64,000 nucleotides of DNA from Stentor roeselii (Eukaryota; Ciliophora; Heterotrichea; Heterotrichida; Stentoridae). The stretch lies in the NCBI GenBank assembly GCA_006503475.1, contig RSEH01000165.1:44380-108379 (forward strand), written 5' to 3'. Shown one piece after another: positions 1 through 61,959 of this stretch. The notes beneath the pieces were generated by a model. That model was not told where the DNA came from. It saw nothing but the letters and a program-made list of their open reading frames with translations, and did not search any database. Both the position numbers and the translations under genes were made by a program. Each line of letters starts with the position of its first letter. Within the stretch, counting starts at the first letter, position 1.

Positions 1-1032
1 GGATCGAGTTTGGTCTCAAAACTCACCTGCTCCATGTCGAAACACGCTTTGCAAGTATTGGGAATAGGAAAAGTGCCATGCTTAGTACTTCCTTTAGCTA
101 CTGGGATGTCGCTTACTCTGTGTTTATTGACTCTAAGACAAGTCAGACCTGTGATTGAAAATTAGACTAGCCAAATAGTTATATGGAGCAGAATAGATCA
201 GAAAACTTGCCTGAAGTGCATCTTTACTGCCGGGCTGCAGGTTGAGGTACTTGAAGGTCGACTTGATGGGGAAAAGGTAGTAACTGGAGATTTGGAAAGT
301 TTGATTGATCGAGTTGGTCTGGATAATATATTATGTGTAATGACTACTACCAGTTGTTTCGCGCCAAGAGTCCCCGACGACATCGAGTCAGTCTCTAAAA
401 CCTGCAAAGAAAAAAACCTCCCTCACGTGATAAACAACGCTTACGGTCTTCAATGCACAAAAATCTGCCATCACATAAAAGAATCAATAAGATTAGGAAG
501 AGTGGATTTCATAGTCCAAAGCACCGACAAGAATTTTTTAGTTCCAGTTGGAGGAGCGATCGTAGCCAGTCCAAACAAGTCTCTCCTCGACAAGTTGAAC
601 ACTCTTTACCCAGGAAGAGCTTCGATGTCAAACGTCATGGACCTCTTCATCACTTTTTTAGCGATGGGGACAAAGAAAATGACCGACTTGGTCAAGACTC
701 GCAAAGCCTTGGCTGTTGAATTCAAAGAAAAACTTTCAATCATTGCACAAAACTTCGAAGAAAAAGTTATTGACAGTAAAGAAAATACTATTTCTTTTGC
801 AGTTACTTGCAAAAGAGAAGACCTGGGAAGTAAATTGTTTTTAAGAAGGGTCTCTGGATGTAGGTTCATCGGAAGTGCAGAAAAAGAAGTGTGTGGAGTA
901 AGATTTGGAAACTATGGAAGTAGTTTTAGTGGTTATCCTTTTAAGTACTTCACAGCAGCTTGTGCTTTAGGTCTTTCAACAGGTGAAATCGAGGTGTTTT
1001 TAGAACGTTTAAAAGGTATTCTTAATGATTAA
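1..1032 (+). CDS. SEPSECS: O-phosphoseryl-tRNA(Sec) selenium transferase (SepSecS), 5' end outside window
   Basis: This PLP enzyme converts phosphoseryl-tRNA(Sec) to selenocysteinyl-tRNA(Sec) with selenophosphate, the last step of eukaryotic selenocysteine synthesis, in the cytosol. The frame is open from base 1 (GSSLVSKLT, a block typical of the family), so the start lies upstream; 338 residues are visible. A 15-nt intron at 151-165 carries an in-frame TAG; removing it joins RQVRP to TSQIVIWSRIDQKTC, a conserved family block. Other family marks are SCFAPRVPD, VINNAYG and VQSTDKNFLVPVGGA; the lysine at 529-531 in that last block is the expected PLP lysine. YPGRAS follows. The protein ends with TAA at 1030-1032, at the expected family C-terminus. 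Its presence implies that the organism makes selenoproteins. Identification is strong; only the N-terminus is missing. Confidence 0.95.
151..165 (+). other. 15-nt spliceosomal intron (SepSecS)
   Basis: GTGATTGAAAATTAG lies between codons (phase 0). It contains the only stop in the conserved frame, and its removal restores an unbroken SepSecS alignment. It starts GTG rather than the GTA of the other four introns found here. Confidence 0.92.
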
Positions 1033-1141
1033 AGCTTTTGAATGGAAACTATTAAAATGGTATAAAAAACTGAAAGTTTAATAGTAAAAATGTCGAATGA
1101 GATCCGTTTCTAGCTAGATTAGAATATAATAATCACTCATA

Positions 1142-1621: not shown

Positions 1622-2167
1622 CTAGCTTAGATTTACCTTTTGGGGCTGTTTACGTCTGCAGCAACAAAGTCTTCGACATATGTTAAACGACTTTCGAGGC
1701 GGATTAACCAATACTTCAACAGCCAATGATAAAGCACTCCTGAAACCAGGATCAAGTAAGTAACTCAAAGGACTATCTTCCGGATTTTCATAACAAAGAA
1801 GTCCCATAACATCCCCAACACTAACCTTCAACTTTTTCTGTCCAATCAAAACAAAAACGCATTCATCACGCCGAGTTGCAAAAGCTTTTTGAGCAAATCT
1901 CATAGCTTCAATTGACTTTTTCCTTAAAACCAACTCAATAAACTCTTGCATATGAAACTGAAGACTGAGTTCCGAAGGGTCAAATCGTGACTCTTTCAAT
2001 AAAGAAAACGCTTCTAAAGGAAATCCAAGAATGATAAGTTTCTGACAATTATAAGAAAGTTCAGAGGTAGACCTGACAGTACCAGGAATGATTTTAAAAT
2101 TTTCCAACTCAATGAATTCCTCAGAGTCCTCAAGTTGTTTATATTTTATACTCGCGCGTGTTCCCAT
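1622..2167 (-). CDS. CTLH/CRA-domain protein (GID8/RanBPM-like)
   Basis: This 181-residue protein contains a CTLH module (residues about 45-90, LGFPLEAFSLLKE followed by FHMQEFIELVLRKKSIEAMRFAQKAF). A CRA module follows (about 118-150, MGLLCYENPEDSPLSYLLD), in the order found in GID8, RanBPM and MAEA. In those proteins the modules assemble the GID/CTLH E3 ubiquitin ligase. The usual N-terminal LisH motif is not obvious, and the protein is shorter than GID8 (about 230 residues). A cysteine-rich basic tail (ICRRLCCCRRKQ) is unusual and could be palmitoylated. The domain call is solid; membership of the ligase complex is inference. Confidence 0.8.
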   Translation of the reverse strand: MGTRASIKYKQLEDSEEFIELENFKIIPGTVRSTSELSYNCQKLIILGFPLEAFSLLKESRFDPSELSLQFHMQEFIELVLRKKSIEAMRFAQKAFATRRDECVFVLIGQKKLKVSVGDVMGLLCYENPEDSPLSYLLDPGFRSALSLAVEVLVNPPRKSFNICRRLCCCRRKQPQKVNLS

Positions 2168-3698: not shown

Positions 3699-4098
3699 TG
3701 TTATTAAAATTTTTGAAAGGGATTAAAGGATTTTTTGGAAGATTTTAAAGGGCAGGGTTTTTGAGGTTACCTTTAATTTTTTGAGCCTGGTAAAGAATGA
3801 TTAATTTTTTAGTGAAAACTGGGAAAGTTTTCGGGGTCAAGAAGAAAGTGGATCTTTAAGTAAATGATTTTAATAATCATCTTTTTCAGTTTCGAGAAGG
3901 TTAACAAACTTTTTCATGTTCAGTTTAGTTGATCACGAATATTAACTGAAAACCCTAAAAAATATCATAAAACCCTCTAAATTTCACAAAAATGAGTATT
4001 TAAATTAAACAAAAAAAATTCTCTACTCAAATAAAAAATTCCAAACCATCAAACCTTTCTTCTCTTAAAACTACTCAAAAAACATTAAACAGTTAAGT
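3699..4098. other. Intergenic gap, about 400 bp
   Basis: No reading frame or RNA gene was recognised. The sequence lies between a gene start and a gene end, both on the minus strand. It is G/T-rich at the left and switches to A/C-rich near 3930, so it holds one of the composition flips described in the findings. Confidence 0.6.
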
Positions 4099-4898: not shown

Positions 4899-7316
4899 AT
4901 GGAAGCCAAAGAACCTTTAAAGGGACAGTTATATCATCGGGAAAAGTCACAACGTTACCTTTATGTCCTTGATGAAGAAATTGGAGCTGTTTATTGCTTT
5001 AAAAGAAAGGTGAACCAAATTCGCTCCAAAGTTTTGATTCTTTCTGGATGCGAGTTTTTGGACTACCCAAGTAAAGTTTAAGCAGATTGTCTTCTTTCTG
5101 AGAATGGATATGCTGCCAGTTTTGATCTGAAAATTGATGAACAGACTTATGCTGTTGTTTGTGAAGATGGTCTTAACCTTGCATCAATTAAAAGTAAATT
5201 TGAGGAATGTTCTAAGCTTCCTATTCCTTTAACTTATCGCAAATGTTGTAGAGTCTTTCGAGGAGTAGGCTTTATCTTGTCAATTCCTTTCAAGTTTTCA
5301 AATGCTTTATGCACAGGTCTTGAAGCAGTAGGTGATCGTTTCAGCCAAGCTCCAGACCGAGTATTCAAGATCCCAGTAAACGAAAACCGAAGAAAGCAGC
5401 CAGGAAACTTCGCAAGTGGAATTTTCATGGGTACAGGAAAGATGTTAATCGGTATCGTAAAAGGAATCGGAGGACTAATCTACGAGCCGATAAAAGGAGC
5501 GAAAACCGGAGGATTCAAAGGCGCAACAAAAGGTTTCGGAAAAGGCATCCTGGGTCTAGTCTGCAAGCCAGTGGCCGGAACAATCGAGTTCGTGACTTAC
5601 ACAGTGCGAGGAGTGAGCAACACTCCTTCATCCGTATACAGAATGGCAGCGAATATATATAAAAAGCGTCAACTTCGAAAGCAAAAACAACTCAATTTCA
5701 ATGGATTGATCGACAACGCACCTTACACCCCGAAACTCGGTGAATACAACGATGACGATGAACAAAATCCAGATATGGAAGGAAATCAACAGGATGATAA
5801 AGAACCTCTTGACCCAGATGAGTTGATTTTGCCTATTTTAGATAGAAACAACCGTTTAAGGCAGTGGATTCTTGAACTTTCTCAGGTACTCAGGCAAGAA
5901 ATCGACCTGCTCTTTGAAGAAAATGATGAAAATGATGTTTTAGAGTACAGGGTCCAAGAAGCTACTGAACTTGGCAGAGCTTTAAAGGAAAAAATCATTT
6001 ACATGATTGAGGAAATCAAAAAGGTTCATGAGGAAAGTCAACTTGATAATGATCTGGTCAAGGACTATAATAATCGAATCATTTCAGGCTTGAAGGACCT
6101 TGGAATTGATGTGACTGGCTTTGAAGTCTTGGAACTTGCCAGTGATATCGAAGAAATTCTGATAGAGGAAAAAGATCTTGAACTTCAGAGCATAAAAAGC
6201 TTTCTGGAACCTGAAGTTGTTGTTGAACCTCCGAAACCCGTTATTAATTATTTTGTGGAACAAGCGAAATCCTGGAGGCCGAGTTTGCTTAAAGATGATT
6301 ATAGAGTACCTGAGGCTGGACCCAATGGAGGCATTCCTCTCACTGATGACCAGGTACTCAAGAAATTAAGGGATGTTGGAAAAGAAATTGTTAAGTCGCT
6401 TGGAAGGGAGATACTTCGAGGAAACTTCAATTTAACTACGGTTTCTTTTCCTATTAAATGCATGCAACCGACTACCACACTTCACAATACTCTTAAGTCT
6501 ATGACTTTAGCTCCTCTTTTCTTTACTAAGGCTGGACTCTCTACTAACCCTATTGAAAGACTCAAGTTTTTAGCATGTGGAACTATGGGAACATATCGAA
6601 ATACTAGTGCTTTTTTGAAACCTGTAAGTTTTATATAGCTCAATCCGATAATAGGCGAAACGCTTAATGCTGAAATGGAAGATGGAAGCAAGATGTACTG
6701 CGAGCAGACCTGCAACCACCCTCCCACTTCTCACTTTTACCTAGTCGGTCCAGACGATTTATACACAATGAGCGGATACGTGATTTTTTCCACTTCAGCA
6801 GGTTTCAACTCACTAACAGTATTTTCCAATCAGCTCCGAAATCAAGGTAAAAAGCAAATAAAATTCAAAGACGGTTCAATAATTCAAATAACATTTCCCG
6901 ACGACCAATTCGTGAAGACCTTCATCGGGACCATGCGTCAAGAGACCTTCGGCAGTTTTACAATCGACGACAAAAAAAACAAGCTTCAATGTCTTGTCAA
7001 CATCGGCAACGTGAAAGGCAAACTTTCAGACTACGTGGAAGGTGTAATCGTAGAAGACGGTAAAAGAATCGTGAGTAAATTAACAGGGACTTATCTCGGG
7101 TACTTCGAATTCGACGGTGTCAGGTACTGGGACGCTCGAGAAGTTTCTGCTTTTCCCATGATTCCCAAGACGATTTTACCTTCCGACTCAGATTTAAGAG
7201 AAGATTTAAAATATCTGAGAGAAGATCGACTTGTTGAGGCGCAAGCCTCAAAAGAACAACTCGAAGCAGTTCAAAGAAATGACAGACGACTTCGAGACCT
7301 TCATAAGCCACATTAG
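4899..7316 (+). CDS. PH domain / VPS13-C-like / oxysterol-binding (ORD) fusion protein
   Basis: The spliced product is about 795 residues, from exons 4899-5070, 5086-6623 and 6639-7316. Residues about 5-100 look like a PH domain (LKGQLYHREKSQRYLYVLD). Residues about 169-234 match the glycine-rich VPS13 C-terminal signature (GIGGLIYEPIKGAKTGG, GFGKGILGLVCKPVAGT). An acidic helical linker follows. Residues about 510-770 form an OSBP-related lipid-transfer domain: removal of the second intron creates KPLNPIIGETL, followed by EQTCNHPPTSHFYLVG, where NHPP replaces the usual HHPP. ORDs move sterols or phosphoinositides between membranes, and VPS13 proteins are bridge-like lipid carriers; here only the VPS13 C-terminal part is present. 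A role at membrane contact sites is inference. Only 11 bp separate it from the next gene. Confidence 0.88.
5071..5085 (+). other. 15-nt intron 1 of the PH/ORD gene
   Basis: GTAAAGTTTAAGCAG, phase 1, ending CAG. The unspliced frame stops inside it. Removing it keeps the PH-like domain open into the long second exon. Confidence 0.9.
6624..6638 (+). other. 15-nt intron 2 of the PH/ORD gene
   Basis: GTAAGTTTTATATAG, phase 0. It splits the ORP signature exactly between KP and LNPIIGET, so its removal is strongly supported. Confidence 0.97.
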
Positions 7317-9597: not shown

Positions 9598-9660
9598 ATG
9601 AAGGATTTTTTTTCGATGAATAAATATTTAGGCTGATTTGATATACTAAATTGAATATTT

Positions 9661-12439: not shown

Positions 12440-12892
12440 ATAAGATTAGAAGCTTTGAAAAATATTTAAAACTAGTTGAAATACCGCTTCTATTAATCCT
12501 GCTTTTAACAATCCAACTATAATTATTATAGCTAAGAATTAGATGAAATTAATCAAGATTGTACGAATTCAACAATTTTAAATAATATTTAGAAGAAGAA
12601 ATGTAATTTCTATGATTCAGGTTTATGGCAAGTGTATAAATTTATCAATTAGTTTACCTCAGAAAACATGAAAATGATTAGGAGAAGTTGATTGTAAAGA
12701 GGGTGCTTACTAAGCGATCTTTCACATCTAAGATCTTGATGCTATAAAGAGAAACGATTTAGTTTGAAAATTTAATAACGAAGGAACAGAAATCTAGAAA
12801 GTTTGTATGGATGATGAATAATTAGTACAAAGATTAAAAAGAATTGTAAGTTTTGGTTTGAGTTGATTTATCAGAGGTTTAGATTCTTTCAT
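12440..12892 (-). pseudogene. Decayed MFS-like transporter, copy C (N-terminal half only)
   Basis: From 12892 downwards the sequence reads MKESKPLINQLKPKL and then degrades through stops while keeping family traces up to about transmembrane segment 3 or 4. Copy B begins directly beside it, so the C-terminal half has been lost by deletion or by unequal recombination with copy B. Confidence 0.7.
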
Positions 12893-21423: not shown

Positions 21424-21618
21424 GTTTCAGTTAAATATTTAAATTTTTAATTGGGTAATGGTAAAAAAAATGCAGGTTTTTTACAATGATTAGATGTTTT
21501 AAGAGGTTATAATAAGGAGAAGTTTATATTCGACTCCACTTTCCTAGTTACAAATAAAAACACTTATGATCAAACCTCAAACTTAAAATAATTACTTCTG
21601 TAAATTAATCTCCATATC

Positions 21619-40213: not shown

Positions 40214-41425
40214 ATGGAGTCTGCCAGGGAGTGCCCAGTTTGTTTTGAGGTTTATTCTTCTGATAGGAAACCACTGATATCTTCGTGTGGACATAGCTTG
40301 TGTGAGTTATGTGTACTTGACATACTTAAAAAATCACCTGTTTGTCCTTTGTGTAACTCTGAATTACCTTCTGATAGGAAATCATTTATTGTAAACTACA
40401 GTCTTATACCTCATTCATCACCTCCAAGACAATTGAAACGACCGGCTGTGAACCATGAGCCACTTATAAAAAAACTGCAAAAAGAAATCAAGTTTCATGA
40501 AGAACTCTTGAAAACTTTAGAAATAATTTCAACAGACATTAACAGAAACCTTGAAAAATCTCAGATGGAAGTTTTAGATTTTTTTAACTTCTGGGCGAAA
40601 ACCTTGGAAACAACTAGAAATTCTTTAATCAATGAAAATAAAAGAATAAAAACACAAAATGAAGAAAAAGTTAAGAAAAATCAAAGAGAAATTTCTGGAA
40701 TTATTGAAAAAAGGAAAAAAATCTTAATGAATATTCTAGAATCTCAAAGAAAAAACATTGAAATCGATGCTTTAGTAACTTCAGAATTGAATTCCCTTGA
40801 AAAAGTTGCAAGTTACGAAATCGAGTTAATAAGCCATCATTTCAATTCTAAATACTTTCCATTAAACCCAGAAGATTTCAAAGAAACTTCCGAAAGCTTA
40901 GAACAACAAGTCCAAAAGTTTCAATTCGATTACGAAATAGAAGATCCTCAAATTCCTCAAGTTCCTCAAGTTCCACAAGTAATTCCACCAAACCCAAAAA
41001 AAATCCAAATCCCGTTAAAAAATCCTTACAACCCTCAACACAACCACCCTGATTTTTCCCAAAACCACCAAAAACGCGACATGTTCCAAGAAAACAATGA
41101 AAAGCCAGGTCATCCTAAAATTTCTCATCCAGAAGTTCCAGTGAAAAACCATCGAGACAACCAAAGAGCCCCATTCGACTACAGCGACCCGAACTTAACA
41201 TTTTCCTGGTCAGTCCAAAGCGCTTCAGGCGAAACTCTGTTGCCAGACTTCGCCTCTGGGCAAATCGAGCGTCTGCGGAAGTCAAACAAGAAGCAAATCA
41301 AGATTTTCCGACAAGGGTCAGCGATGTTCATGGCAGATCTGGTGAAAATGGAGTATCACAAACTAGACGCAAGAGAATTCATAATCCCAGGACAGTCTTC
41401 TCGGCTGATAAGCCGTTTGGAGTGA
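40214..41425 (+). CDS. RING-finger protein with coiled coil and WWE-like C-terminus
   Basis: The 403-residue protein starts with a C3HC4 RING finger (about 7-49: CPVCFEVY, CGHSLCELC, CPLCNSE), so it is probably an E3 ubiquitin ligase. A coiled coil covers about 80-230. A Pro/Asn/Gln-rich linker with repeats (PQIPQVPQVPQV) covers about 240-320. The last 75 residues (LTFSWSVQ, IKIFRQGSAMFMADLVKMEY) resemble a WWE domain, which in RNF146 and Deltex proteins reads ADP-ribose; this part is tentative. It ends TGA, which shows that TGA is a stop here. The stop lies 3 bp from the stop of the next, convergent gene. Confidence 0.8.
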   Translation: MESARECPVCFEVYSSDRKPLISSCGHSLCELCVLDILKKSPVCPLCNSELPSDRKSFIVNYSLIPHSSPPRQLKRPAVNHEPLIKKLQKEIKFHEELLKTLEIISTDINRNLEKSQMEVLDFFNFWAKTLETTRNSLINENKRIKTQNEEKVKKNQREISGIIEKRKKILMNILESQRKNIEIDALVTSELNSLEKVASYEIELISHHFNSKYFPLNPEDFKETSESLEQQVQKFQFDYEIEDPQIPQVPQVPQVIPPNPKKIQIPLKNPYNPQHNHPDFSQNHQKRDMFQENNEKPGHPKISHPEVPVKNHRDNQRAPFDYSDPNLTFSWSVQSASGETLLPDFASGQIERLRKSNKKQIKIFRQGSAMFMADLVKMEYHKLDAREFIIPGQSSRLISRLE

Positions 41426-41428
41426 TTA

Positions 41429-42499
41429 TTAGTTAAAATCAATAAAGTACTTTCTTCTAAAACTAGAAAATTCGCCGGAATCTTTAAATTGTTGAAAAAT
41501 TTCTTCAAGGCTCTCAACCATGCACATTTTTAAATCGTCGTACATTGATTCTTCAAGTAACTCTCGGTAAGAAGGATCGAAAAGTTCTTTTAATTCAGTT
41601 CCTCGAACGTTAATTACTTCATAATTTTCATAAAAACTACCTTTTGCCAGTTCTTTCATTGTGTTAACAGCGCAGATTTGTTGATCATTTCCTTGTTTTT
41701 TAGTAAAATCCAGAAAGGCATAGTAAAGTTCTTCGATTTCGAAGATTTCTAAGATTTCCAAATCGACTGGAAGAGGAGGTCTCTGACTTTCAGCGTCGAT
41801 TTTAAGTGAAAGGAAGCTGATGAGGACTAAAACGTTGTTTCTGATTGGAATTTCAAATAACCACCGGCCTTGGTATTGAAATTTGTATTCAAAGCCTCCT
41901 GTGAACCAGAGAAGAGAGTAAATAAAGTACTCGACTGACAGTGAAGGGTGGATTTTAAATTGAAGCACGATTAGAGATAAGACTAAGAAAAGTGTTGATT
42001 CAATTAAGTAGCATGAGTTGTTAAAGTAAGGCAAAAGAGATGGAGAAAGGTGAGACTGAAATACTATCATTGATATTATCAGCAGTGAAAGACCTGCATA
42101 TGAAAAGCATAGAAAGTAAATAACTTTGAATGAACTTAGCCTTGTGAAGGAAATTCGTGAAATTTCACCATTGCGGAACTTGTGCAAGATCATTATTCGG
42201 ACCATTCTTAGTAATGTGCAGCAAGCGTAAAATCTGCTTGTGAAGATGATTAGGTTGAATAAAACTAACTCGGTTGTTCCTATTTTTTTTGATATGTAGC
42301 TTGAGTACCCACATATTATGTTTAAGACGATTTCGATGAAATTCGAAAAGTTACTGACAATCATCAAGTAACCTGAACGTTCAAACATTGGACCTGATGC
42401 CTTGCTGTTTAGTTTAAAAAGAGAGTAGAGCATCAAGACAAAAAATAAGGTTTCTATTAAAAGGATTAAGAGAAAATTGAGTAAGCTGTAGTCCACCAT
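41429..42499 (-). CDS. Seven-TM protein with C-terminal RGS-like domain
   Basis: The first 240 residues of this 356-residue protein hold about seven hydrophobic helices, for example FLLILLIETLFFVLMLYSLF at the start. The C-terminal 120 residues (EELYYAFLDFTKKQGNDQ, GSFYENYEVINVRGTELK, EEIFQQFKDSGEFSSFRR) match the helical pattern of an RGS box. RGS domains speed GTP hydrolysis by G-alpha proteins; a 7TM-RGS fusion is known from plants (AtRGS1) and some protists. It is therefore a candidate receptor-like regulator of G-protein signalling. No ligand-binding signature is visible. The RGS call needs a profile search. Confidence 0.72.
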   Translation of the reverse strand: MVDYSLLNFLLILLIETLFFVLMLYSLFKLNSKASGPMFERSGYLMIVSNFSNFIEIVLNIICGYSSYISKKIGTTELVLFNLIIFTSRFYACCTLLRMVRIMILHKFRNGEISRISFTRLSSFKVIYFLCFSYAGLSLLIISMIVFQSHLSPSLLPYFNNSCYLIESTLFLVLSLIVLQFKIHPSLSVEYFIYSLLWFTGGFEYKFQYQGRWLFEIPIRNNVLVLISFLSLKIDAESQRPPLPVDLEILEIFEIEELYYAFLDFTKKQGNDQQICAVNTMKELAKGSFYENYEVINVRGTELKELFDPSYRELLEESMYDDLKMCMVESLEEIFQQFKDSGEFSSFRRKYFIDFN

Positions 42500-42582: not shown

Positions 42583-44928
42583 ATGAAATCATCATCAGAA
42601 GGTTTAGTCTCCGCGATCCAAGAATACCTTCTAAAATCAGGTTACTTTAACACCCTTGAAGTCTTCCAACACGAGTTAACAGCCGAAAGGTCATCATCAC
42701 AAGACACTCAGTCCTTATCCCTTCTAACGAAAAGTCTCGAGGCGGGCGACCAAGACTCTTTTTTCAAAGTCTGGACACGATTTCTGCCAGTCTCCGCAAC
42801 AAAATCAGGAGAAGGACAAAAGCTAACATTTTACGCTTACGTCTTTTTCGCGATCTTCCCTCTTCACCCTTTAAACCGTTCAACGAAGCAGGCTCCAGAC
42901 TCTGACTTCAAGACCCGAATGGAGATTTTCAAAGACTTTCTAAACACAAAAGGCTCAGAACTTTCAAAAACCGAAGAATTTCTTCATTTTTACGCCTTGC
43001 CTTTTATTCCCAGTCCTCAAGAACACCCAGCTTTTAAGGTCTTATTCACCCGAGGCTGGGTAACTGAGTTAAAAGAGAGAATTTCGAAGTACTTCAAAGC
43101 GAACGCGGCTCCAAATCAACAACCGGCTTTGGTTCAAATCTTTAAAAACTTCAGTGACAGCAAAAAAAAACCGCCGACAGGGAAAAGTTCTTCAAAAAAA
43201 GGAGTTGAAGTGATTTTTGACGGAGGCGAATTGGAAAAAGAACTGACTGATTTAAAAAACCAGCATATTTTACTACAACAGAGAGAAGAATACACCAGGA
43301 ACACCCTGGTTGAAAGTCAGACGAAGTGGACTTCTTTTTGCAAGGACATCCTTAACCTGACGAAGGACCTTTACTCGTGCATGGAGAATATGAGGAGGGG
43401 GTTTAATGTGGATTATAATTTGATTTCAGGGATTTTAGAAAAGGTCAACCGTTATGAAGCCTTCTTAAACTGCAATGGCGACGACGTTTCTGTGTCTTAC
43501 TCTCAAGCCGACCATAGCATTTCAGATCTGACTCCTTCTCCTCATCGAAGAGAAGTTTCTGAGTCTTCAGTCGCGCCGATTCACTTGGAAAAAGAAATGA
43601 TTAAAGGATACTCGACTTTGCCTCACTTGAACTACGCGATTGTCATTCGTGATTTGAATAACTTGCAAGACGATCTTCAGGTCTGCAGCTTGTTGCAAGC
43701 TTTAAGATGGAGACTCTCGAGGTCTCAAGCGTATTTGAGGAAGGAGATCCTTGGAGCTTATATAAAATACAATATTTTATGCACTACTAAACCACATGAT
43801 TTACTTCTTGATAAATTACTGAATTGGGAAGGGAGAGTTAAAGAGTTTTGTGTCAGGTTTTTGAATGTCATCGCGACTGAATGCGCAGGAAGGAGCTACT
43901 TGCTTACTAAGGACAGCCTCATCAAGATACTCACGAAAGTCTTGTATATTGAAAGGGAAGATACCTCCTTGAGGCAGAATACTTTAGGAATTCTTCAGAA
44001 ACTCTCTTTGAGGAGACATGCACAGTCTGCTATGATTGAACTTGATATGATCGACTGGCTTGGAAGGGTCTTGAAGAATGAGTTGCATAGTATTTCTTAT
44101 TATTCGTTGGAATATGCGACGGCTTTGCTTATGAATCTCAGTCTTAGGACTTTGGGAAAGGATAAGATTCAAGGGTCGCAAATTGACTTGTTGGTTGTAC
44201 TTAATCACTTGTTGGAACATGATAATACTCAGGTCAGGACTTATGTTAATGGAACTCTTTATAGCATTTTAACTAGGCAGAAACTTAAGGAAAGAGCTAT
44301 TGAATTGAGAATGGATAAGAAACTTGTTTCGCTTAAAGATAATTCTGATGAACATTTTAAGAGACAGATTCAGTATATTTTAGATCAGCTTAAGTATGAT
44401 AGCACTGATGATTGCTTGTCTGATGATAATGATGATGAGGTGGAGGACAGGGATGATGATGAAAACGACCTCGACGAGTTCATCGCAGAAGACGAAGACA
44501 TGGACGACCTGATCCAAGATCCAATCCTAACAGGCGAAGAGCTTCTAGTCCAAAAATACATGGCAAAGCCTCCAAAAAACAAAGAAGAAAAGCCCTTCAG
44601 CCGTCCAGCAACTCCAGGAAACCTGGAAAGAAACCTTCCAAGCGAGTTACGTTCAAGACCAAAGATCCCTCGATCACCAAGCGAGATGCTTCGAGAAGAG
44701 GCGAAAAAGCAGAAAGAATTATCAAAACCAAAGCTAAAAGACTCAGAGTCAAAAAAACTCGACTTATCAGAATTATCCGACGCATCAGTTCCAGAAAAGC
44801 TAGTCCAAGATCCTCCATCAGAGAAAAAACCCGAGCAGGCCGAGAAGCCAGAAGGAAAACCAGTGGGAACAGGCGAGTTTTCATACGCTTTTAAAAGTAG
44901 AGACCGCATCCCCAGGTCGCCTTTGTAG
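42583..44928 (+). CDS. ARMC9: ARMC9 (LisH and armadillo-repeat protein of cilia)
   Basis: The 781-residue protein has an N-terminal LisH motif (about 6-38, VSAIQEYLLKSGYFNTLEVF). The following blocks match ARMC9: LNTKGSELSKTEEFLHFYAL, PFIPSPQEHPAFKVLF and LLQALRWRLSRSQAY. In the armadillo region are LQKLSLRRHAQSAMIE, YSLEYATALLMNLSLRT and YVNGTLYSIL. An acidic stretch (DDNDDEVEDRDDDEND) follows and then a low-complexity tail with SRPATPGN. ARMC9 acts at the ciliary base and tip and is mutated in Joubert syndrome. The base composition flips sharply near 44460 within the acidic stretch. Only 11 bp separate it from the K+ channel gene. Confidence 0.96.
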   Translation: MKSSSEGLVSAIQEYLLKSGYFNTLEVFQHELTAERSSSQDTQSLSLLTKSLEAGDQDSFFKVWTRFLPVSATKSGEGQKLTFYAYVFFAIFPLHPLNRSTKQAPDSDFKTRMEIFKDFLNTKGSELSKTEEFLHFYALPFIPSPQEHPAFKVLFTRGWVTELKERISKYFKANAAPNQQPALVQIFKNFSDSKKKPPTGKSSSKKGVEVIFDGGELEKELTDLKNQHILLQQREEYTRNTLVESQTKWTSFCKDILNLTKDLYSCMENMRRGFNVDYNLISGILEKVNRYEAFLNCNGDDVSVSYSQADHSISDLTPSPHRREVSESSVAPIHLEKEMIKGYSTLPHLNYAIVIRDLNNLQDDLQVCSLLQALRWRLSRSQAYLRKEILGAYIKYNILCTTKPHDLLLDKLLNWEGRVKEFCVRFLNVIATECAGRSYLLTKDSLIKILTKVLYIEREDTSLRQNTLGILQKLSLRRHAQSAMIELDMIDWLGRVLKNELHSISYYSLEYATALLMNLSLRTLGKDKIQGSQIDLLVVLNHLLEHDNTQVRTYVNGTLYSILTRQKLKERAIELRMDKKLVSLKDNSDEHFKRQIQYILDQLKYDSTDDCLSDDNDDEVEDRDDDENDLDEFIAEDEDMDDLIQDPILTGEELLVQKYMAKPPKNKEEKPFSRPATPGNLERNLPSELRSRPKIPRSPSEMLREEAKKQKELSKPKLKDSESKKLDLSELSDASVPEKLVQDPPSEKKPEQAEKPEGKPVGTGEFSYAFKSRDRIPRSPL

Positions 44929-44939: not shown

Positions 44940-47222
44940 ATGGAGCCAGCAGCTAAAAGAAACTTCACAAAAATTTTCCCGAAGATCTCTCAGGGACCGA
45001 TTGACGACCCTGAAGTTGAAGGCACAAAAGCTTTGACTAGGTTGAAGGACAACAAGTCAGAGGTGACCAAGGCGATAGTTAAAAGTGAGTCAAAGGAAAG
45101 TAAGTACCTGATCAACCCTGAGTCTTATGGGAAATTGGCTTGGGATATCATGTGCATGGTGTTTATTGTGTACTTGTCGATCACTGTGCCGTATAAGATC
45201 TGTTTTAATATCACGAGTTCTGAAGCTTGGTCTTATTTTGAAATGGTTGTCACGCTTTTTTTCATGGCAGATGTTTTTGTTACTTTTAATACTGGGTTTT
45301 ATTCGAAAGGGGCTCTTGTTACTAATAGAAAAGCTATCGCTTTGAATTATATAAGGTTTTGGTTCTGGATGGACCTTGCTGCAAGTATTCCTTATTCTTG
45401 GTTTATTGATGGAATCGTTGAAAAAGAACCCTCGGATAATGGAGGAGGAGGTGGAGTTTATCAGGCTCCTCAGATGTTAAGGCTTATTAGAATTACAAGG
45501 TTTCTTAGGGTTCTTAGGTTGTTGAGACTTGCTAAGTTGAAAAGGGTTTTGATGAAAATTGAAGATTATATTGCTAGTAATATGCTTGCTACTTTGTTTG
45601 TTTTTGCTAGGCTGCTCTCTGTTGTGTTTTTTATTGCGCATTGGACTGCTTGTTGGTGGTTTTATATTGGCACGCAGGATATGGACACAGAACCTATGAC
45701 TTGGATCACTAAGGCAAAGATTGAGAATAAGTCTAACTCGGAGAAATATATTACTTCATTGTATTGGGCTTTCACCACAATGACAACAGTCGGTTACGGA
45801 GACATCACTGCAATCACAATAAACGAAAAGATCTACGCAATGTTTTCAATGATAGTAGCATGCGGGGTGTTCGCCTACACAGTAGGAAGCATCGGTTCTC
45901 TAGTATCCAAGCAAAACGCGATGGAAAACGCTTACCGAGAGCAAGTAGTAGCTGTCAATCGCTACATGCGTAAAAAAGAACTTCCATACGACCTCCAGTT
46001 CAGAGTGCGCAGATACCTCGAATACGTTTGGGAAAACAAAAAAAGAAACAATTTAGACGAGAAGCAAATTTTAAAACTCTTATCAGAACCGCTTCGAGAC
46101 GAGATCTACGCACAGATCCACGGCGACATCATAAAAAAATGCCCGATTTTCAGCGACAGTGTCTTCGAAGCTCACTTCCTCAATCAAGTCACCCGCGCCC
46201 TGGAAGGCGAGACCTACGCGCCAGGGGACACAGTAATCGAAGAAGGCGAAATGAGCACGAAAATGTACTTCATTCAAAATGGAAAAGTCGACATTTTTCA
46301 CCATTCCACTAAAAGTACTTTCAAAGAACTGAAAAATGGAGACTATTTCGGTGAAATCGCTTTTTTCTCGGAAAGACCCAGATGCGCCTCTGCCAAATGT
46401 CTTGATTTCGTCGATTTACTTAGTCTTTCAAGAAATAGCATGAATGATATTCTTGAAAGGTTTCCGGAAGCTAAGAAAAAAGTCAATGAATTGAATAAAG
46501 CTTGTGAGGAAAATCGATTCGATGAACTGGGAGTCAGGTGCTATGTTTGTGATAAAAAAGGACATTTCGCTATCAAGTGTACGAAAATCTTGCTTAATGT
46601 TGATCGAGATGAAACTCGCAATAATTGGCTTGAAAAGCGAAAAAATGCTCTTCAGAAAAATGTGAAACCTGAAGATGAAAACAAGCCGAATTTTCAGAGA
46701 TTTTCAAGAAAAAGAATAAAAATTCCAGTGAAACTTAGAAATGTGATAGGAATGAAACAACCTAATGGTGAAATTTTCCCTGAAAAACAGGAACTTAACT
46801 CGAAACTTACTAAGTACCTTGCAAGGAATAGCGCTGATGATCGACCTGCTAATCTTGAACTTCAGAGACCTTTCCCTGTGAATCGCCCGAAATATACTCT
46901 TATTTATAAAGACTCTGAAGGCTCTGCTGAAGGAGGGGACGAAGAGGTTTTTGCACAGGAAATTCAGTCTGATGATGAACAACAAGAAAAAAATTTGAAG
47001 ATTTTTGAAGACTCGAATCTTGGATCGCCTTTTGATATTAGCAGCCTTGAAAGTAACTCGAAAAATGAAAAAGAAAGAGGATTTTCGGATTTGGTTGGAA
47101 AACTTAGTCGAATTGAAATACCTGATTTTAATAACTTTGAAAGAGAATCTGATGGGAAGTCTGTTGAGTTTTCAGCTGGGTCGCCTGTTAATTTACTTGT
47201 TCCGCCTAAAAGTCCGAGATAG
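44940..47222 (+). CDS. Voltage-gated K+ channel with cyclic-nucleotide-binding domain and zinc knuckle
   Basis: This 760-residue channel has six membrane segments between about 65 and 330. The S4-like helix is rich in Arg (LRLIRITRFLRVLRLLRLAK). The selectivity filter is TTVGYGD at about 282-288, the signature of K+ channels of the EAG/CNG class. A C-linker and a cyclic-nucleotide-binding domain follow (about 405-510, YFGEIAFFSERPRCASA). Then comes a CCHC zinc knuckle (CYVCDKKGHFAIKC, about 537-550), which is unusual outside ciliates. The C-terminal 200 residues are acidic and Ser-rich. The phosphate-binding Arg is kept (ERPRC). Such channels set ciliary membrane potential in ciliates; that role is inference here. 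Confidence 0.94.
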   Translation: MEPAAKRNFTKIFPKISQGPIDDPEVEGTKALTRLKDNKSEVTKAIVKSESKESKYLINPESYGKLAWDIMCMVFIVYLSITVPYKICFNITSSEAWSYFEMVVTLFFMADVFVTFNTGFYSKGALVTNRKAIALNYIRFWFWMDLAASIPYSWFIDGIVEKEPSDNGGGGGVYQAPQMLRLIRITRFLRVLRLLRLAKLKRVLMKIEDYIASNMLATLFVFARLLSVVFFIAHWTACWWFYIGTQDMDTEPMTWITKAKIENKSNSEKYITSLYWAFTTMTTVGYGDITAITINEKIYAMFSMIVACGVFAYTVGSIGSLVSKQNAMENAYREQVVAVNRYMRKKELPYDLQFRVRRYLEYVWENKKRNNLDEKQILKLLSEPLRDEIYAQIHGDIIKKCPIFSDSVFEAHFLNQVTRALEGETYAPGDTVIEEGEMSTKMYFIQNGKVDIFHHSTKSTFKELKNGDYFGEIAFFSERPRCASAKCLDFVDLLSLSRNSMNDILERFPEAKKKVNELNKACEENRFDELGVRCYVCDKKGHFAIKCTKILLNVDRDETRNNWLEKRKNALQKNVKPEDENKPNFQRFSRKRIKIPVKLRNVIGMKQPNGEIFPEKQELNSKLTKYLARNSADDRPANLELQRPFPVNRPKYTLIYKDSEGSAEGGDEEVFAQEIQSDDEQQEKNLKIFEDSNLGSPFDISSLESNSKNEKERGFSDLVGKLSRIEIPDFNNFERESDGKSVEFSAGSPVNLLVPPKSPR

Positions 47223-51800: not shown

Positions 51801-52212
51801 CTCAAGGTTTGGAAAGGGACTTATATCTTTTATTATACTTAAAGTTATGACTTAAGAATTTTCCCTGATGAATTATTAAGAATGTTTATTAATAATGAAA
51901 GAATATTTTTTTCTTTTTAAGTACTGAGAAGAAGTGGAGATGATCAGTTTCAAGCTAAAGATAAGAACCCTTTCTAACTCAGATGACTTTAGACATGTTT
52001 AAAGCTGTTGAATGCTTGACTCACTCATCTATTTAAAAAGTTTTCCAAAAGACTTCACCTATTCTTTAAAAAAAATCAAATCTTTCTCCAATAACCCCTT
52101 TTCCCCCTCCAAACCACAAAAAATTAATCAAAAGTCAATGAAAACCCTATTTTTCTGACTGCTGAATAATTCGAATATAAATATTCAAACTAACATTCAG
52201 CATTAACAAATT
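51801..52212. other. Intergenic gap of about 410 bp
   Basis: AT-rich, with no credible frame. A C-rich stretch (CCCCTTTTCCCCCTCC) at about 52095-52112 precedes the start of the next gene. Confidence 0.5.
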
Positions 52213-54366: not shown

Positions 54367-57048
54367 TTAGAAGTTAGCGTCCCAATCCAAAGGGATGGTG
54401 AGTCGATACTCATCAAGTTCCGGGTCATTGATTTCAATGGGACTACTGGCGCTGTCTGCAGATTCACGTTCAATCAAGTCTTGATTTTCATCAACCATAT
54501 CCTCGTCAATATCATCAAGTGGTTCACCGACATCAGGAGTGTAAGGTGCATTCAACGTGAGTTTCAACAGTCCATCCCAATCAAAGCCATTAAACCAGTC
54601 ATTTCTTTTCAGACTTTCAATTCCGCCAGTGCATCGAAACTCAGGGAACTTGTTAAGCAGCTGCTGCACAATGAACTGTTGAGCGGCTTCACTGGGCTGT
54701 TCGATATCCGAAGGGAAAATGATGCGATACTCAAGGATAGCTTCGTAGATATCATAAGGGTCTTCGAAGTCCTCGCCGAAAGGAACACTTCCGCAAAGAA
54801 ACTCGAACAAGCAGATGCCCAAAGACCAGACGTCTGCATTTTTGTTGTAGCCTTTTCCCACTATCGCCTCAGGAGCCATGTAATGAGGAGACCCGATCAG
54901 GGTGTAAGTCCGGCCTTTGTGGATTTTCGCGGAGCCGAAATCAATGAGTTTGATGTAACCGTGAGTGTCGATCATTATGTTCGAAGGCTTCAGGTCACGG
55001 TAGATGATGTCTCGCTCGTGGAGGTACTGAAGCGCGAGGATGAGACTTCCGATGTAAAAAAGACAGTCGTTGTTTGAAAGAAGACCTACGTGCTTTAAGA
55101 TCGCGTTTAACTCCAGACCGTGAACGTACTCAAGCAAGAAGTAAATTCTTCGGGAGTCTTTGTAGGTCTTTACCAGCTTCATTATGAATGGACTGTCAAT
55201 CATTCGGAGAATTTCTCGCTCTTGCTAAGTAGCCTTTACCTGGATGTGCTCCTGAATCACTAATACGTTGATTTTCCGTCGGGGTAAGACTTTCAAAGCG
55301 TAGAGCTTTTTTGTGTTTTTTACTCGGACTAAGTACACCCTGGCGTAGACACCTTTTCCGAGACGTTTGATGACTTCCAAGTCGTGCAACTGGGCTTTTT
55401 CGTCTTGCATGTTTATTCGGTCGAATAGTTGTTGCTTCATTTTTTCGTTTAGGATGTTTATGAAGTTGTTCTTTGAGATTATCCAGAGTGAAGCGTTGCC
55501 GTCGGCTACACATGATGCTGAGGTCGTGCTTTCACTTAGGATTCCTCGCTCCCCCACATAGTCATGTTTGCATATTGTTCGCACTATCTGATTATTTTTT
55601 AGAACATTTATTTTACCTCTTTTGACGATGTAAAGATTATCACAGAATGTGCCTTCCTTGAAAATTATTTCTCCGTCTCGGTATTTTTTTATATCTATCA
55701 TTGAGAACAGGTCTTTCAAAGTCTTCGAATCTAAACTACTGAAAAGATAAACTCTTCTAAGTACATTCATAGCATTATTCTCCCTGACAACTTCTTTATA
55801 CTTGCCTCCAATAGCATTTTCGAATTTATACTTGGTAAGTTCTCCTATTTTGACATCACATCCGGCGATCATATCATCCTCATACCGTGCCTGGTCCTGG
55901 TTGCTAAGAGTGACGAAGTCATCTCCAATACAAGCTCCCTTCTCCGAAAACGGTAAAGAAGTCTTGGCATAATAAAGCCTTCCACTGATAATAATATAAA
56001 GGTTTGACTGGCAAAGTGACTGATTAGGTATAACAATATCTCCAGCTTTATAAGTCCTATATTCAAGATCCCTTAAAATGCCTTCCTTCTGGTCCTTGCT
56101 CAAAAAGTAGAGTTTGACAGATTTATTCAACGCTTCTAAAATCGTATTTTTTTCAATGATTTCAGTTAACTGGTTTCCAAGGGCCTTTTGCAGGTCATCC
56201 CTGCTGAGAACGACGCACTTGACGCCTCCTTCCATAGCGATGCAAGTGGCCTGCCTAGGAACCTTATAAAGCAAGGCCATTTCTCCGAAGAAGTCTCCTT
56301 TGCCGAGCCTCGCAAGTTCCATTTGTCCTTTTTTGACCTGCACGGTTCCTTCCCTGATGATATAAAGATTATTTCCTTCATCGCCTTCATTGATGATCTT
56401 CTGCCCAGCGAGGTGTTTTTCACTGACAAGAGAAGCTGCAAGTGAGTCCTTCTGTTGCGGGTTGAGAGGCTGGAGCAGATGAACTTTTTCCAGGAATTCT
56501 CTGTTTTGCTCATAAATCGTGGTGTTCATCTCTTCAATAACCCTTCTGAACGTCGCCCGGTCAATGCCCCACATGGCTGACTTTTCCAAGGTCCTGACAG
56601 TGGCTGCCCTGGGGTTGTCATGCAAAAGGGCCAACTCGCCGAAGCCTTCGCCTGCGTGGATCTTGCTCACTCGTTTGCCGTTGACCAGCACTTCAAGACT
56701 GCCGTATTTGACGACGTAGTAACTTTTACTTGTTCGGTCTTGCTCGAAGACTACTTTTCCGGCTTCGAACTTGTACAGCTGCATTGTGTCTGAAACTACA
56801 TCTTTGTCTTCTTCGGTTAGACTTGTGAATATGAAATGGTTGTTTAGGGCTTGCAGAATCGTTTCACGGTCTTCTTTTGGAACTTTTATGCCTACCTCGA
56901 TTTCAGCTGCTGAGGCCTCGATGTAGTTTTGGCTTTGGTGACGGCTTAAACGGCCACGGACTCCGCGCTGGACTTTTGGGTCTAGGTTGTTGGTGTCTTG
57001 GTTTTTTATTGTTTTGGGTACTTCCAGTTTCATGCAGCCGGTTCCCAT
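54367..57048 (-). CDS. PKG: cGMP-dependent protein kinase with four cyclic-nucleotide-binding domains
   Basis: Exons 57048-55240 and 55224-54367 encode about 888 residues. The N-terminus MGTGCMKLEV could be myristoylated and palmitoylated. Four cyclic-nucleotide-binding domains follow at roughly 68-170, 188-290, 308-410 and 430-530. The first two have complete binding cassettes (FGELALLHDNPRAATV, FGEMALLYKVPRQATC), the third is degenerate (IGDDFVTLSNQDQARY) and the fourth is partial (VGERGILSESTTSASC). The kinase domain has GKGVYARVY, ALKVL, YRDLKPSN and DFGSAK; the gatekeeper position in FLLEYV appears to be Leu. The C-terminal tail DWDANF is the usual PKG ending. This layout matches alveolate PKG, which controls calcium and motility in apicomplexans. 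Confidence 0.95.
55225..55239 (-). other. 15-nt intron (PKG gene)
   Basis: On the coding strand GTAAAGGCTACTTAG, phase 0. It contains the only stop between the ATP-binding lysine region and the rest of the kinase domain; splicing joins IQEHIQ to QEREILRMI, restoring helix C. Confidence 0.96.
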
Positions 57049-57349
57049 TAGAATTAATTGTTGGAGGATTAAATGTAAGTCTGGATTAAAAGTGAATTAG
57101 AAAGTGATGCTTTATTATATATTTTTATATTTTTTGAAAGGATTTAAAGAATTACTTTTTCAGAGGAATTGAGTTAATTTAGATTATCGTTATTTCATTG
57201 ATTTATTGATAGAATAAATTCAGAACACTTAATCACTTCTTTTTCTTACTTTTACCAAGAACTTTTTTTAGCTGTAATAGAACCTAGATCATTATAAATA
57301 AAACTTTTATACTCCTAAGACAAAGAATCTACTTATTCAGGGAGAACTC
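57049..57349. other. Intergenic gap of about 300 bp
   Basis: AT-rich sequence between two genes on the minus strand. I see no frame or RNA gene. The right half is A/C-rich. Confidence 0.5.
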
Positions 57350-58831: not shown

Positions 58832-60109
58832 TTAAAAATAAGAGAGTAAGGTTATAATATAATAGATGAAAACGCAAATAATAAACAAAGTAACAGCTTT
58901 GCCCTTTGGTTTTTCAGGTGCCTTTAAGCATAAAGTGTCAAGTCTTTCAACGCTTTCCCACTTTTTAGCAATTGGATCAAAGACCATGTGATAAACGACT
59001 GTATGCATGTTATTTGTATTCAAGCTAATATTTAAAGCACTTTCTCCATAGTGACCTTGGAACCTAAGTGTGAGTTTATAAGATCCAGTAATCTCATCAT
59101 CCAAATACATCATTGAGCTTCCCTTAAGTTCTGCCCAACTATTTCCCTTAGCAACAACAATAGAAGTGAATAAAGAATAAGGGCATCCATCAAGATCAAC
59201 ACCCAAGAATCTAAGACAATCATATTCATTCCCATCAACAATTTCAACCCCTTTAGTGACTTTGAGTCTTCTGTTAAGTTTAAACTGAGGTATTCCAAAA
59301 TTGAGTTTTTCCATGAGCATCTGAATGACAGTATCACAAAAAGCATGTATTTTCAAATCAGCATATTGATCCAAAGGAGTTTTTTGCAAGTTGACAATCA
59401 CCAGCCTACCCCCTCGATCACTGACAGTTTTAGGCATATCAGCAGCAGGTCTAACAGTTAAACTGCTTCCCATAGCAAGACACAAGTCAGCTTTTTCAGA
59501 ATGTTCGAATGCATTTCTAAGAACTACCGGGTCCAAACTATCTCCAAAGTTAATGATACTGTCAACAAGAGTCCCTTTGCAGTTGCGATCATCACAAAGC
59601 CTTCCAGTTTGATGATCATGCACGTCTGTCGCAGTGCGGACAGTGAAATCCCTCATGTACTCTTTTTTGCACTTCAAGCACTTTTCAAGGTTCGTGTTTC
59701 CGTGGACTTCTGCTAGTTTCTGCGAAGGGATTCCACTTCTTCGATGAAGACCGTCCGTGTTTTGGCTTATCAGGTACTTCATGAGTCCTTCTTCCATTAG
59801 TCTCAGTAACGCCATGTGGGTTGGACTTGGAATCGCTTTAGACATCTCGCCTCGAATGTTTGGCCTACTGGATGCTAGTCCATTCGCTTTTAGCTCCCAA
59901 CAGCCTGGACCTGTCGGAAGAATTGTTTTCAGACCTGAACGGAAATCAGGAATTCCTGCAGATGTTGAAATACCGGCTCCTGTAAAACTGATGAAGTGCT
60001 TTGATTCAAGGATCCATGATGCTAGTTGGCTTACTTTTGCTTCTAAATCTTCTGGTGAGTCAAAGTACTCTTTTTTCTGATCTTCTGATTTTAATGCAGT
60101 GTTCGCCAT
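58832..60109 (-). CDS. Sirtuin (SIR2 family, SIRT6/7-like) with C-terminal membrane helix
   Basis: This 425-residue NAD-dependent deacylase has the Rossmann start FTGAGISTSAGIPDFRSG (about 42-59), SQNTDGLHRRSG (about 115-126) and the catalytic His136 in EVHGN. Zinc ligands are Cys144, Cys147, Cys172 and Cys177. The NAD motif is MGSSLTVRPAADMP, followed by LVIVNLQKTPLD. The order and the LVDSIINFGDSLD segment favour the SIRT6/7 class. After the sirtuin domain (to about 275) a beta-rich extension of some 130 residues follows. The protein ends with a hydrophobic helix, AVTLFIICVFIYYIITLLSY, that looks like a tail anchor. No GT-AG intron could remove it. A membrane-anchored class IV-type sirtuin would be unusual. 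Confidence 0.9.
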   Translation of the reverse strand: MANTALKSEDQKKEYFDSPEDLEAKVSQLASWILESKHFISFTGAGISTSAGIPDFRSGLKTILPTGPGCWELKANGLASSRPNIRGEMSKAIPSPTHMALLRLMEEGLMKYLISQNTDGLHRRSGIPSQKLAEVHGNTNLEKCLKCKKEYMRDFTVRTATDVHDHQTGRLCDDRNCKGTLVDSIINFGDSLDPVVLRNAFEHSEKADLCLAMGSSLTVRPAADMPKTVSDRGGRLVIVNLQKTPLDQYADLKIHAFCDTVIQMLMEKLNFGIPQFKLNRRLKVTKGVEIVDGNEYDCLRFLGVDLDGCPYSLFTSIVVAKGNSWAELKGSSMMYLDDEITGSYKLTLRFQGHYGESALNISLNTNNMHTVVYHMVFDPIAKKWESVERLDTLCLKAPEKPKGKAVTLFIICVFIYYIITLLSYF

Positions 60110-61959
60110 TTATAGAAAGGTGGATAATTAAGTTCTAGTTTAGTTGTGTAGAACTAGATAAATTTTAGGGTTTTAATTATTGATATTCAATGATTTTAAT
60201 GAACTTAAGATAATTTTTATTTTAATTATTAGAGTGTTGATATGCTTAAAATTTATTGTTAAGAGTTTTATTATATCGGAATTAAGAATGAGATTAGTTT
60301 GATATTTAAGTATATCTTTGTGATTTAATATTTAAATTTGGTCTGATGAATAACTACTTATTTTAAGTTATGAACTATTAAAGTGTTGAATGATTTAATT
60401 GGTATAACTATGAAAATAATCCATGAAAGACTTAAGGCTGCTGAACTATTAACAATATAATTTCATAAGAATTAATTTCTGCAATTTTAGATAAATTAGC
60501 TATTCCTTAAGTTTATGTTTGAGTATTCATCACTTAATCAATTTGTATTAATAAGTCATCTTTTATGGTTTTCGTACTCTTTTAAGTAAAAAACAACAGC
60601 ATTTTTTCAAATCTTCAAATTTTCCCACTCAAATAGCCCATCCAACGTTCTAGAATCTTCAGGAGAAGTGGAGAATATAAGACACAGAAGTTTTTCAATT
60701 CATCGGAGGTTCTTCGTTATCGCTTTGTTTTTTGCTGAGCGATCACATATTATGGCTATTTACCGACATGGTAACAAATTCGAAAATGTAATTTCGAGGA
60801 TTTAAGGCTTTTCCAAGTTACTAGATATCATGAACTCAAAAAAATAAATTAGTTTGGTAAATCTCTTACTTATCAGTTAAATCTGTCATTGATTATATAT
60901 GGGTTTGGAGTTTTTCATATGTATTTTAGTTCTCTATAGACTAATGATTGGCTGGGTCAACTTTAACACTCTTTCTTATATATTTTTTCCTAGTCCTGCT
61001 GACTTTTGTGAAACTTTTATGGATAGTAAAATTGTCAGTTATTTTAATATCATTAAATAAGTTAATTCTAATTTTAAAATACTTATTTAATTGAAATCTA
61101 GAATAGTTTCTGTTGAAGAGCTATTGTAGAAGATGATGCTTGTATTTCGGGTATGGAAAAGTTAACGATGGTTAGATAAGTAGATTTTGATGGATCGCTG
61201 TTTAAATGCAATAGGCATCGGTGGTCCAGTCATCCAGATTGTAGAACAACCATATATTTAAAAGATCATCTTTAGAGCATATACTGAAGGAATTTAAAAT
61301 ATAGTGTCTTCACCGATGATCAAATGTCAACTTCACTTAGACGCTTGAGAAGTCATCTTGTCATTCCTCCGAAGGACGATATCTGATGTTTATCATGATT
61401 TCAACCACACTGTCTACACTTCAAACATCATCGATGACTCCAACGCTTTTTACACAGCTACTCTCTTGCACTTCTAGCCAAGCTCGTCAATTACAAATCA
61501 AAATGCAGAAATTATATATTGGAAAATCAGATCTTGCCCAACCTTTATCAGACATCAACAAAGAGAAAATTTATTTTAAAATATCATCCTCAGCCGAAAA
61601 TTGAATTTTCTATGATTAAGATTGCTTTGAGAAAGTCTAAAAATTCAATCAGCCCATGAGGGCTTTTCCGGGATCCTTAAAAAGTCATCGATTCTGCATC
61701 AAAAGCCCTAAACGACTGAGAAACTCTTCGAAAATTTACCAAAAAGTCTGCTTCAACAAAAAAAACTCTCACTTCTATAATCTTTAGATCAAGAAACTGC
61801 TTCAATCCATAAAAAAACAAAAAATTTCACATTCTCTCTTTTAAGAGATAGTAGAAATCACCGAAAATCACTTAGAAACGATCAAAGATAAGGTAAAACA
61901 GTGGAAAAGGAAAAATCTTTAAACAATTGAAAATGAATCAAGAATCCTCTGATGGATTG
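60110..61959. other. Gene-poor region, about 1.85 kb
   Basis: Mostly AT-rich sequence. A frame of 72 codons at 61386-61604 (plus) and Ser/Lys-rich traces to about 61950 may be the decayed 5' part of the WD40 gene that follows, but I cannot match them. No RNA gene was recognised. Confidence 0.5.

Follow-up and report, generated by a model that had tools for sequence, protein, structure and literature searches.

In single-stranded mitochondrial DNA, C-to-T and A-to-G changes occur together on the exposed strand and form one long gradient per genome that is set by replication. Human skew N-domains are megabase-scale saw-teeth of compositional skew, with abrupt upward jumps at replication origins followed by a linear 5' to 3' decrease (PMC3320577). 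At human meiotic breaks, de novo and rare variants at PRDM9 hotspots show mutation of opposite strands on the two sides of a point, with C and A mutating on the forward strand at left and G and T at right; the arms extend several hundred base pairs to kilobases, and about 100 bp either side of the centre is unbiased (PMC7615360). In AID/APOBEC kataegis, single events of cytosine mutation with deaminase context signatures are ascribed to single strands exposed by resection near breaks (PMC3628087). Blepharisma carries about 40,000 internal eliminated sequences (IESs) in a 41-Mb genome, about 70% of them intragenic where genes cover 77% (PMC9942856, PMC9942806), and most are bounded by TA (PMC9942856). 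Here, we describe a saw-tooth of strand composition in a 64,000-nt window (the whole stretch of DNA analysed) of contig RSEH01000165.1 from the Stentor roeselii assembly (44.4 Mb, 522 contigs), in which the plus strand switches abruptly from G/T-rich to A/C-rich at points about 2 kb apart. No prior description of such a pattern was found in the literature on Stentor or on ciliate strand asymmetry and skew, and no paper on IESs or the micronuclear genome of Stentor turned up, in a search that left most subscription papers outside. The available text of a ciliate codon-usage study including two Stentor species uses neither "strand" nor "skew" (PMC10384029).

The pattern was proposed in a first-pass annotation of the window. 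We measured K, the balance of G+T (keto) against A+C, in the window and in C77, a separate 200-kb stretch of the same assembly that the first-pass annotation had not covered. Steps, or flips, were called at z≥4.5 with 250-bp or 100-bp flanks. In the combined 264 kb, 116 steps were called, and one call near an edge was dropped, leaving 115 for later analyses. Third codon positions were tested in 40-codon blocks against shuffles that leave the protein and the codon counts of every gene unchanged. The 34 genes of the window gave a keto variance of 0.0805 and the 113 genes of C77 one of 0.0804, about 3.5 times the 0.023 of the shuffles; the pooled ratio at 60 codons was 4.8. The increments were skewed by -0.56 and -0.49, respectively, against 0.00 in shuffles (standard deviation (SD) 0.07 and 0.04). 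At 40 codons, the purine axis stayed close to its shuffles (0.0278 vs 0.0254), and the GC axis exceeded its own moderately (0.0374 vs 0.0209). Increments were also skewed, by -0.43, at eight loci on eight contigs, a value that stands without a shuffle for comparison. In the control genome, E. coli K-12 (50 kb, 39 genes), variance was 0.0210 against 0.0211 in shuffles, and skew was -0.11 against 0.01 (SD 0.08). The saw-tooth is confirmed as real and strong, and it recurs outside the window with the same figures.

The six hand counts of G+T in the first-pass annotation (105/180, 44/120, 70/120, 41/120, 35/60, and 20/60) are exact. Thirteen of the 15 flips that it named are supported, those at 1.15 kb and 33.65 kb being the exceptions. 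Eleven of the 15 lie within 60 bp of a called step; the flip at 0.36 kb was called and later dropped solely for its proximity to the window edge, and the flip at 5.34 kb emerged in the third-position test (Table 1). Flips inside uninterrupted frames do switch synonymous codon choice at once, as had been claimed, with WASHC4 as an example. The claim that every gene is A/C-rich 5' and G/T-rich 3' survives only as a weak mean tendency, together with a 1.4-2.2-fold enrichment of flips within 100-200 bp of gene starts and stops. Specifically, 17% of flips lie within 100 bp of a gene start, compared to 11% of random points, and 22% lie within 100 bp of a stop, compared to 10%.

Sharp steps run almost exclusively from G/T to A/C. 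With 100-bp flanks, 6 down-steps and 1 up-step were called in the window and 32 and 1 in C77, a total of 38 vs 2. With 250-bp flanks, the corresponding numbers were 22 and 9 in the window and 94 and 61 in C77; these up-steps are gradual rises between close flips. Each step is a dipole, with a GT-rich arm on the left and an AC-rich arm on the right. At 67 isolated steps, the arm holds a plateau to about 200 bp, reaches zero near 600 bp, and has a mean length of 423 bp (395-445). When steps are aligned on their best-fit point, the first 50 bp (0.149) already have the plateau value. The switch itself is narrower than about 50 bp, based on 72 steps compared with simulations of 0, 40, 100, and 200 bp, and simulated steps were located with a median error of 5-6 bp. 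Median spacing is 1.7-2.2 kb, and teeth of 600-1500 bp resemble two overlapping arms. The ramps of 1-2.5 kb that were first described are thus present as a saw-tooth and are mostly two arms meeting.

Permutation of blocks of 3, 30, 60, and 150 bases gave on average 0.03, 1.2, 6.2, and 16.7 down-steps in the window, where 22 were seen, and 0.03, 6.2, 24.4, and 65.0 in C77, where 94 were seen; long blocks retain the signal itself. Greedy dipole fitting returned 30 GT-to-AC and 8 AC-to-GT dipoles in the window and 90 and 42 in C77. Six 60-base block permutations yielded 2-5 and 1-4 in the window and 10-18 and 10-21 in C77. The reversed dipoles may be read as centres between close flips. Extrapolated from 116 steps in 264 kb to 44.4 Mb, the genome would hold about 19,500 fixed sites.

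The bias also follows the DNA strand outside genes. Around 84 flips called from codons only, strict intergenic DNA (outside the chosen open reading frames (ORFs) and outside coding-like segments) has C.071 and G.171 on the left and C.174 and G.087 on the right (1,897 and 2,204 bases). Codon-derived K likewise sorts the DNA outside chosen ORFs, with C going from.213 to.073 and G from.071 to.197 between extreme deciles. C at Leu first positions goes from 53% to 12.5% between extreme K deciles. Proteins are affected as well: across 112 flips, the share of V+A+G rises by 4.1 points (2.8-5.3) while that of P+H+S+Q changes by -4.1 (-5.6 to -2.9). At four-fold sites, sense and antisense genes show mirrored context effects (r.85, or.76 without the context-free base effect; the largest of 200 label permutations gave.70). 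A bias that is present between genes, within genes on either strand, and in amino acid composition, and that obeys a DNA-strand rule, makes codon selection an unlikely cause. A cross-strand read-out covered two sides, the other two having no sites, and was clear on one and weak on the other. Steps called in plus genes gave K -0.60 (standard error (SE) 0.06, 135 sites) in minus genes on the right, and steps called in minus genes gave +0.11 (SE 0.08, 166 sites) in plus genes on the left.

We term exposed the strand that runs with its 3' end towards the step (top on the left, bottom on the right). When flips were called with intergenic bases included, a two-state equilibrium comparison with distant intergenic DNA gave a T/C ratio of 2.17x (1.94-2.44) and a G/A ratio of 1.71x (1.58-1.85) on this strand. 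The bias fits C-to-T raised 2.2-fold and A-to-G raised 1.7-fold on the exposed strand. Strand-linked mutation bias, a cause considered from the beginning, is supported. In intergenic DNA, the neighbouring base on either side has little influence on the loss of C or the gain of G. For any 5' or 3' neighbour, C/(C+T) on the exposed strand is 0.58-0.75 of its distant value, and the contexts preferred by APOBEC or AID (TC, CC, WRC) are not favoured there. Signatures of APOBEC, AID, ultraviolet light, and CpG depend on neighbouring bases, unlike the bias described here. Biased gene conversion is not visible, because GC content near flips is not raised. Four-fold sites of the exposed strand tend to avoid T after G and to favour A before C; since such context effects are mirrored between strands, they belong to a DNA process, yet not to simple deamination.

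Short G/T words are also distributed unevenly in the flip flanks of the window and C77. Outside chosen ORFs, counts on the GT-rich and the other strand are 131/6 for TTTTG, 60/0 for GGGTT, 88/3 for TTTGG, and 41/0 for GGGG. This exceeds single-base expectation, and the words resemble the G strand of telomeres.

We tentatively favour, at a little under an even chance, the reading that flips are recurrent germline double-strand breaks at fixed sites. A break would recur at the same germline site over evolutionary time, and its 5' ends would be cut back to expose about 420 bp of 3' single strand per side, the top strand on the left and the bottom strand on the right. C-to-T and A-to-G changes would accumulate faster on these single strands than in paired DNA, turning the left arm GT-rich and the right arm AC-rich regardless of coding content, and with sites 1-2.5 kb apart the arms would merge into the saw-tooth. 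The polarity of the flips requires the mutating strand to be the one with its 3' end towards the flip, and 5'-to-3' resection exposes the strand with its 3' end at the break. The arm profile of isolated steps resembles a survival curve of tract length. Heritable change in a ciliate must arise in the micronucleus. Meiosis would be the likeliest source of breaks, because only micronuclear changes are inherited. Ciliate germlines have been reported to have very low mutation rates (PMC5585995), and so low a background would allow break repair to dominate the spectrum.

Human meiotic-break mutagenesis is similar in its opposite strands on the two sides of a point and in the scale of its arms. Its polarity is found here as well, from standing genome composition rather than from observed mutations, and the Stentor signal is denser. 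Kataegis shares the ascription to resection-exposed single strands near breaks, and differs in that the Stentor bias is nearly context-free and genome-wide. Stentor shares both transitions with the mitochondrial gradient, but has many short dipoles in nuclear DNA.

Several observations weigh against recurrent breaks. The human centre is unbiased, whereas in Stentor the bias continues as far as the switch. The weakness of the model is that positions are sharp yet carry no motif, which leaves the fixation of sites without an explanation. K-mer counts, position-resolved counts, and a palindromic expectation-maximization (EM) search (70 flips) found nothing above control windows 200 bp away (EM log-likelihood at width 8, 12.6 vs 23.0 and 29.4 in controls; at width 12, 26.3 vs 25.6 and 32.7); TA, ATA, and TATA show a mild rise within some 40 bp of flips. 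On the exposed strand, in distant DNA, and on the protected strand, GGT makes up 9, 17, and 38% of Gly codons and CGT 6, 11, and 24% of Arg codons, which runs the other way, and GAA/GAG is flat across flips; neither is predicted by C-to-T plus A-to-G alone. The strengths of the left and right arms show no positive correlation (r -0.21, n=67). Opposite-strand neighbour genes show no clear continuity in a small sample (r -0.51 for 37 pairs, -0.10 for the 23 pairs without a called step); tandem neighbours gave -0.21 (68 pairs) and 0.36 (44 without a step). The mean bias product at 60-150 bp is 0.060 within genes, 0.021 for convergent, 0.000 for tandem, and -0.038 for divergent neighbours, and at 150-300 bp it is 0.029, -0.051, -0.005, and -0.013, respectively. 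The shape, polarity, sharpness, and density of the dipoles, their presence outside genes, and the strand-specific bias are measured from composition, and from these we infer the single strand, the break, its resection, the germline timing, and meiosis.

The six copies of a transporter gene of the MFS family share a bias profile (mean r 0.29, against 0.03 for random sets of six from 51 genes, SD 0.09, maximum 0.42 of 2000), and their flips occupy corresponding positions close to the 3' ends. In a second paralogue pair (C77 54050 and 157791), an internal flip is not common to both. WASHC4 is 92% identical in protein to one relative and 86% to Stentor coeruleus SteCoe_14412, and no correlation with local K was seen in its amino acid differences from four relatives (44 to 232 differences; r 0.12, -0.01, -0.06, and -0.04). 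This comparison is either uninformative, or the landscape is common to the relatives. The transporter copies form a tandem array at window positions 9661-24402, with at least six minus-strand members (about 65-70% DNA identity where aligned) broken by a WD40 gene. Five were recognized by Pfam, and one near 11.2 kb by DNA similarity.

We consider it unlikely that flips are fixed two-way fork barriers or termination points. At such points, forks arriving from either side would stall with a few hundred bases of unpaired lagging template, on the top strand to the left and on the bottom strand to the right. This predicts the identical polarity, substitutions, and sharp switch, and it agrees with the enrichment near gene starts and stops. 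Ordinary fork polarity, on the other hand, should last to the nearest origin, yet the bias fades by 600 bp. Moreover, no barrier-protein motif occurs at flips, and their median spacing would demand very dense barriers.

It is rather improbable that flips mark the positions of germline-only DNA, with breaks or fork trouble inside IESs collapsing to a sharp point on somatic removal. Flips are sharp and motif-free, which fits this reading, and 64% of the 115 lie in ORFs compared to 76% of random points, like the mostly intragenic, slightly gene-depleted IESs of Blepharisma, whose density is of a similar order (PMC9942856, PMC9942806). Those IESs are DNA segments, mostly TA-bound, whereas the flips, known here from the somatic sequence, lack TA enrichment: TA stands at only 24% of 115 switches, and simulations gave 29% (SD 4) if none were at TA and 45% (SD 5.5) if all were. 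In addition, IES excision itself is an event of the somatic line and is not inherited.

Selection on codons or messages, under which each message would drift from A/C-ending to G/T-ending codons with resets in places, is strongly disfavoured and has a very small probability. Coding strands do begin slightly AC-rich (mean -0.06) and finish slightly GT-rich (+0.04), compared with 0.15 at flips, and C-ending NNY codons, GGT, and CGT, which resemble optimal codons of some eukaryotes, are commoner on the AC side. Translational selection should be confined to reading frames, yet the bias, with its flip, is present in strict intergenic DNA when steps are called from codons alone; the first positions of Leu codons and amino acid composition change as well, and genes in sense and antisense orientation mirror each other in context effects.

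The first-pass annotation raised boundaries of ancestral fragments as a possibility. It is scarcely credible that flips remain from the fusion of ancestral chromosomes or fragments with opposite end composition: their polarity would match telomere-capped molecules, and exposed strands outside chosen ORFs are rich in TTTTG, GGGTT, and GGGG, but flips sit within single conserved domains (near residue 277 in the Ion_trans match 67-327 of a cyclic-nucleotide-gated-type channel, and near residue 543 in the WASH-4_N match 58-600 of WASHC4) and the near-saturated codon use, as in WASHC4, needs a continuing process.

A link to transcription, also put forward at first, is not supported, and classical replication polarity has the wrong sign at the jumps. 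Within genes of 900 nt or longer, 60 flips are distributed over the whole length (14, 7, 16, 9, and 14 by fifths), and flips occur at all four kinds of gene junction (9/31, 16/48, 8/26, and 6/22). Skew jumps up at origins in human N-domains (PMC3320577) and jumps down here, and a bias of this origin should not fade within 600 bp.

Table 1. Flips in the window. G/T-ending codons and T among NNY codons are given before and after the flip.
Position	Location	z	Remarks
350..351	Close to window edge	≥4.5	Unrefined
1684..1685			Called at 250-bp flanks, refined
3931..3932		6.7	
5340..5341		5.5	Third codon positions only; absent from all-base list
6688..6689		≥4.5	
9640..9641	Past 3' end of MFS gene copy	≥4.5	
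12885..12886	Past 3' end of MFS gene copy	≥4.5	
21530..21531	Between two MFS gene copies	6.6	
22971..22972	Between two MFS gene copies	7.0	
25776..25777	5' end of WASHC4	≥4.5	
27370..27371	WASHC4 (+)	9.4	About codon 543 from ATG; G/T-ending 81/98 then 22/97; NNY T 18/18 (300 nt upstream) then 4/32
31399..31400	Importin-like gene (-)	6.4	Coding strand G/T-ending 79/97 then 32/97; NNY T 21/23 then 10/23
33009..33010		6.6	
34183..34184		≥4.5	
36555..36556	Between ORFs 34424-36433 and 36606-39278	6.8	
38876..38877	ORF 36606-39278 (-), without Pfam match	6.9	G/T-ending 76/96 then 36/96; NNY T 29/30 then 13/29
40392..40393			Called at 40308, refined to 40392
42492..42493	5' end of minus-strand ORF 41429-42499, between divergent genes	7.3	
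44461..44462	ARMC9 (+)	8.8	About codon 626; G/T-ending 75/99 then 24/97; NNY T 27/31 then 1/16
45772..45773	Cyclic-nucleotide-gated-type channel (+)	8.0	About codon 277; G/T-ending 72/90 then 23/94; NNY T 16/19 then 3/22
51950..51951			Called at 52018, refined to 51950
55716..55717		≥4.5	
57212..57213			Called at 57174, refined to 57212

The gene names WASHC4, importin-like, ARMC9, and K+-channel-like were upheld by Pfam; DBT was not located, and ORF 5277-6638 is without a Pfam match. Long reading frames stay open under standard stops, and these intact frames suggest that the sequence is the somatic (macronuclear) genome. GC at first and second codon positions (GC1 44.2, GC2 33.1) is near the published S. 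roeselii values of 44.26 and 33.29, and third positions are somewhat off (C3 20.4 vs 19.3, G3 17.8 vs 14.9) (PMC10384029). A 15-nt spliceosomal-type intron (GTA...TAG) lies at window positions 29419-29433; with the intron removed, two frames are read as a single protein, as would be expected of a heterotrich. A gene for a Ku-type DNA end-binding protein occupies 34424-36433 (Ku_N, Ku, Ku_C, and Ku_PK_bind matches). At 47222-49224, 14347-16463, and 60110-64000, the DNA is AT-rich (GC about 0.2-0.3 in places) and without long ORFs, and strand bias in 200-bp windows is weak or absent. Locus L003 has a short tandem duplication (204 bp, 91% identical) at 1143-1531, adjoining a chaperonin gene. In the window, a tRNA scan and an Rfam scan at gathering cut-offs gave no matches, and a viral-contig scan for relatives found none.

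Even without a mechanism, analyses of codon bias, skew, and dN/dS in this Stentor are confounded by position effects at the kilobase scale. It is possible, although rather doubtful, that the somatic sequence is a readable map of germline breakage, perhaps at germline-only DNA, with each of the estimated sites placed to a few bases, setting synonymous codons and shifting proteins. If this is true, codon choice here would depend largely on the distance to a break or exposure site and not on tRNAs or expression, and a genome sequence alone would suffice to map germline breakage. Ciliate meiosis, germline-only DNA, and slow germline mutation would then become directly testable questions.

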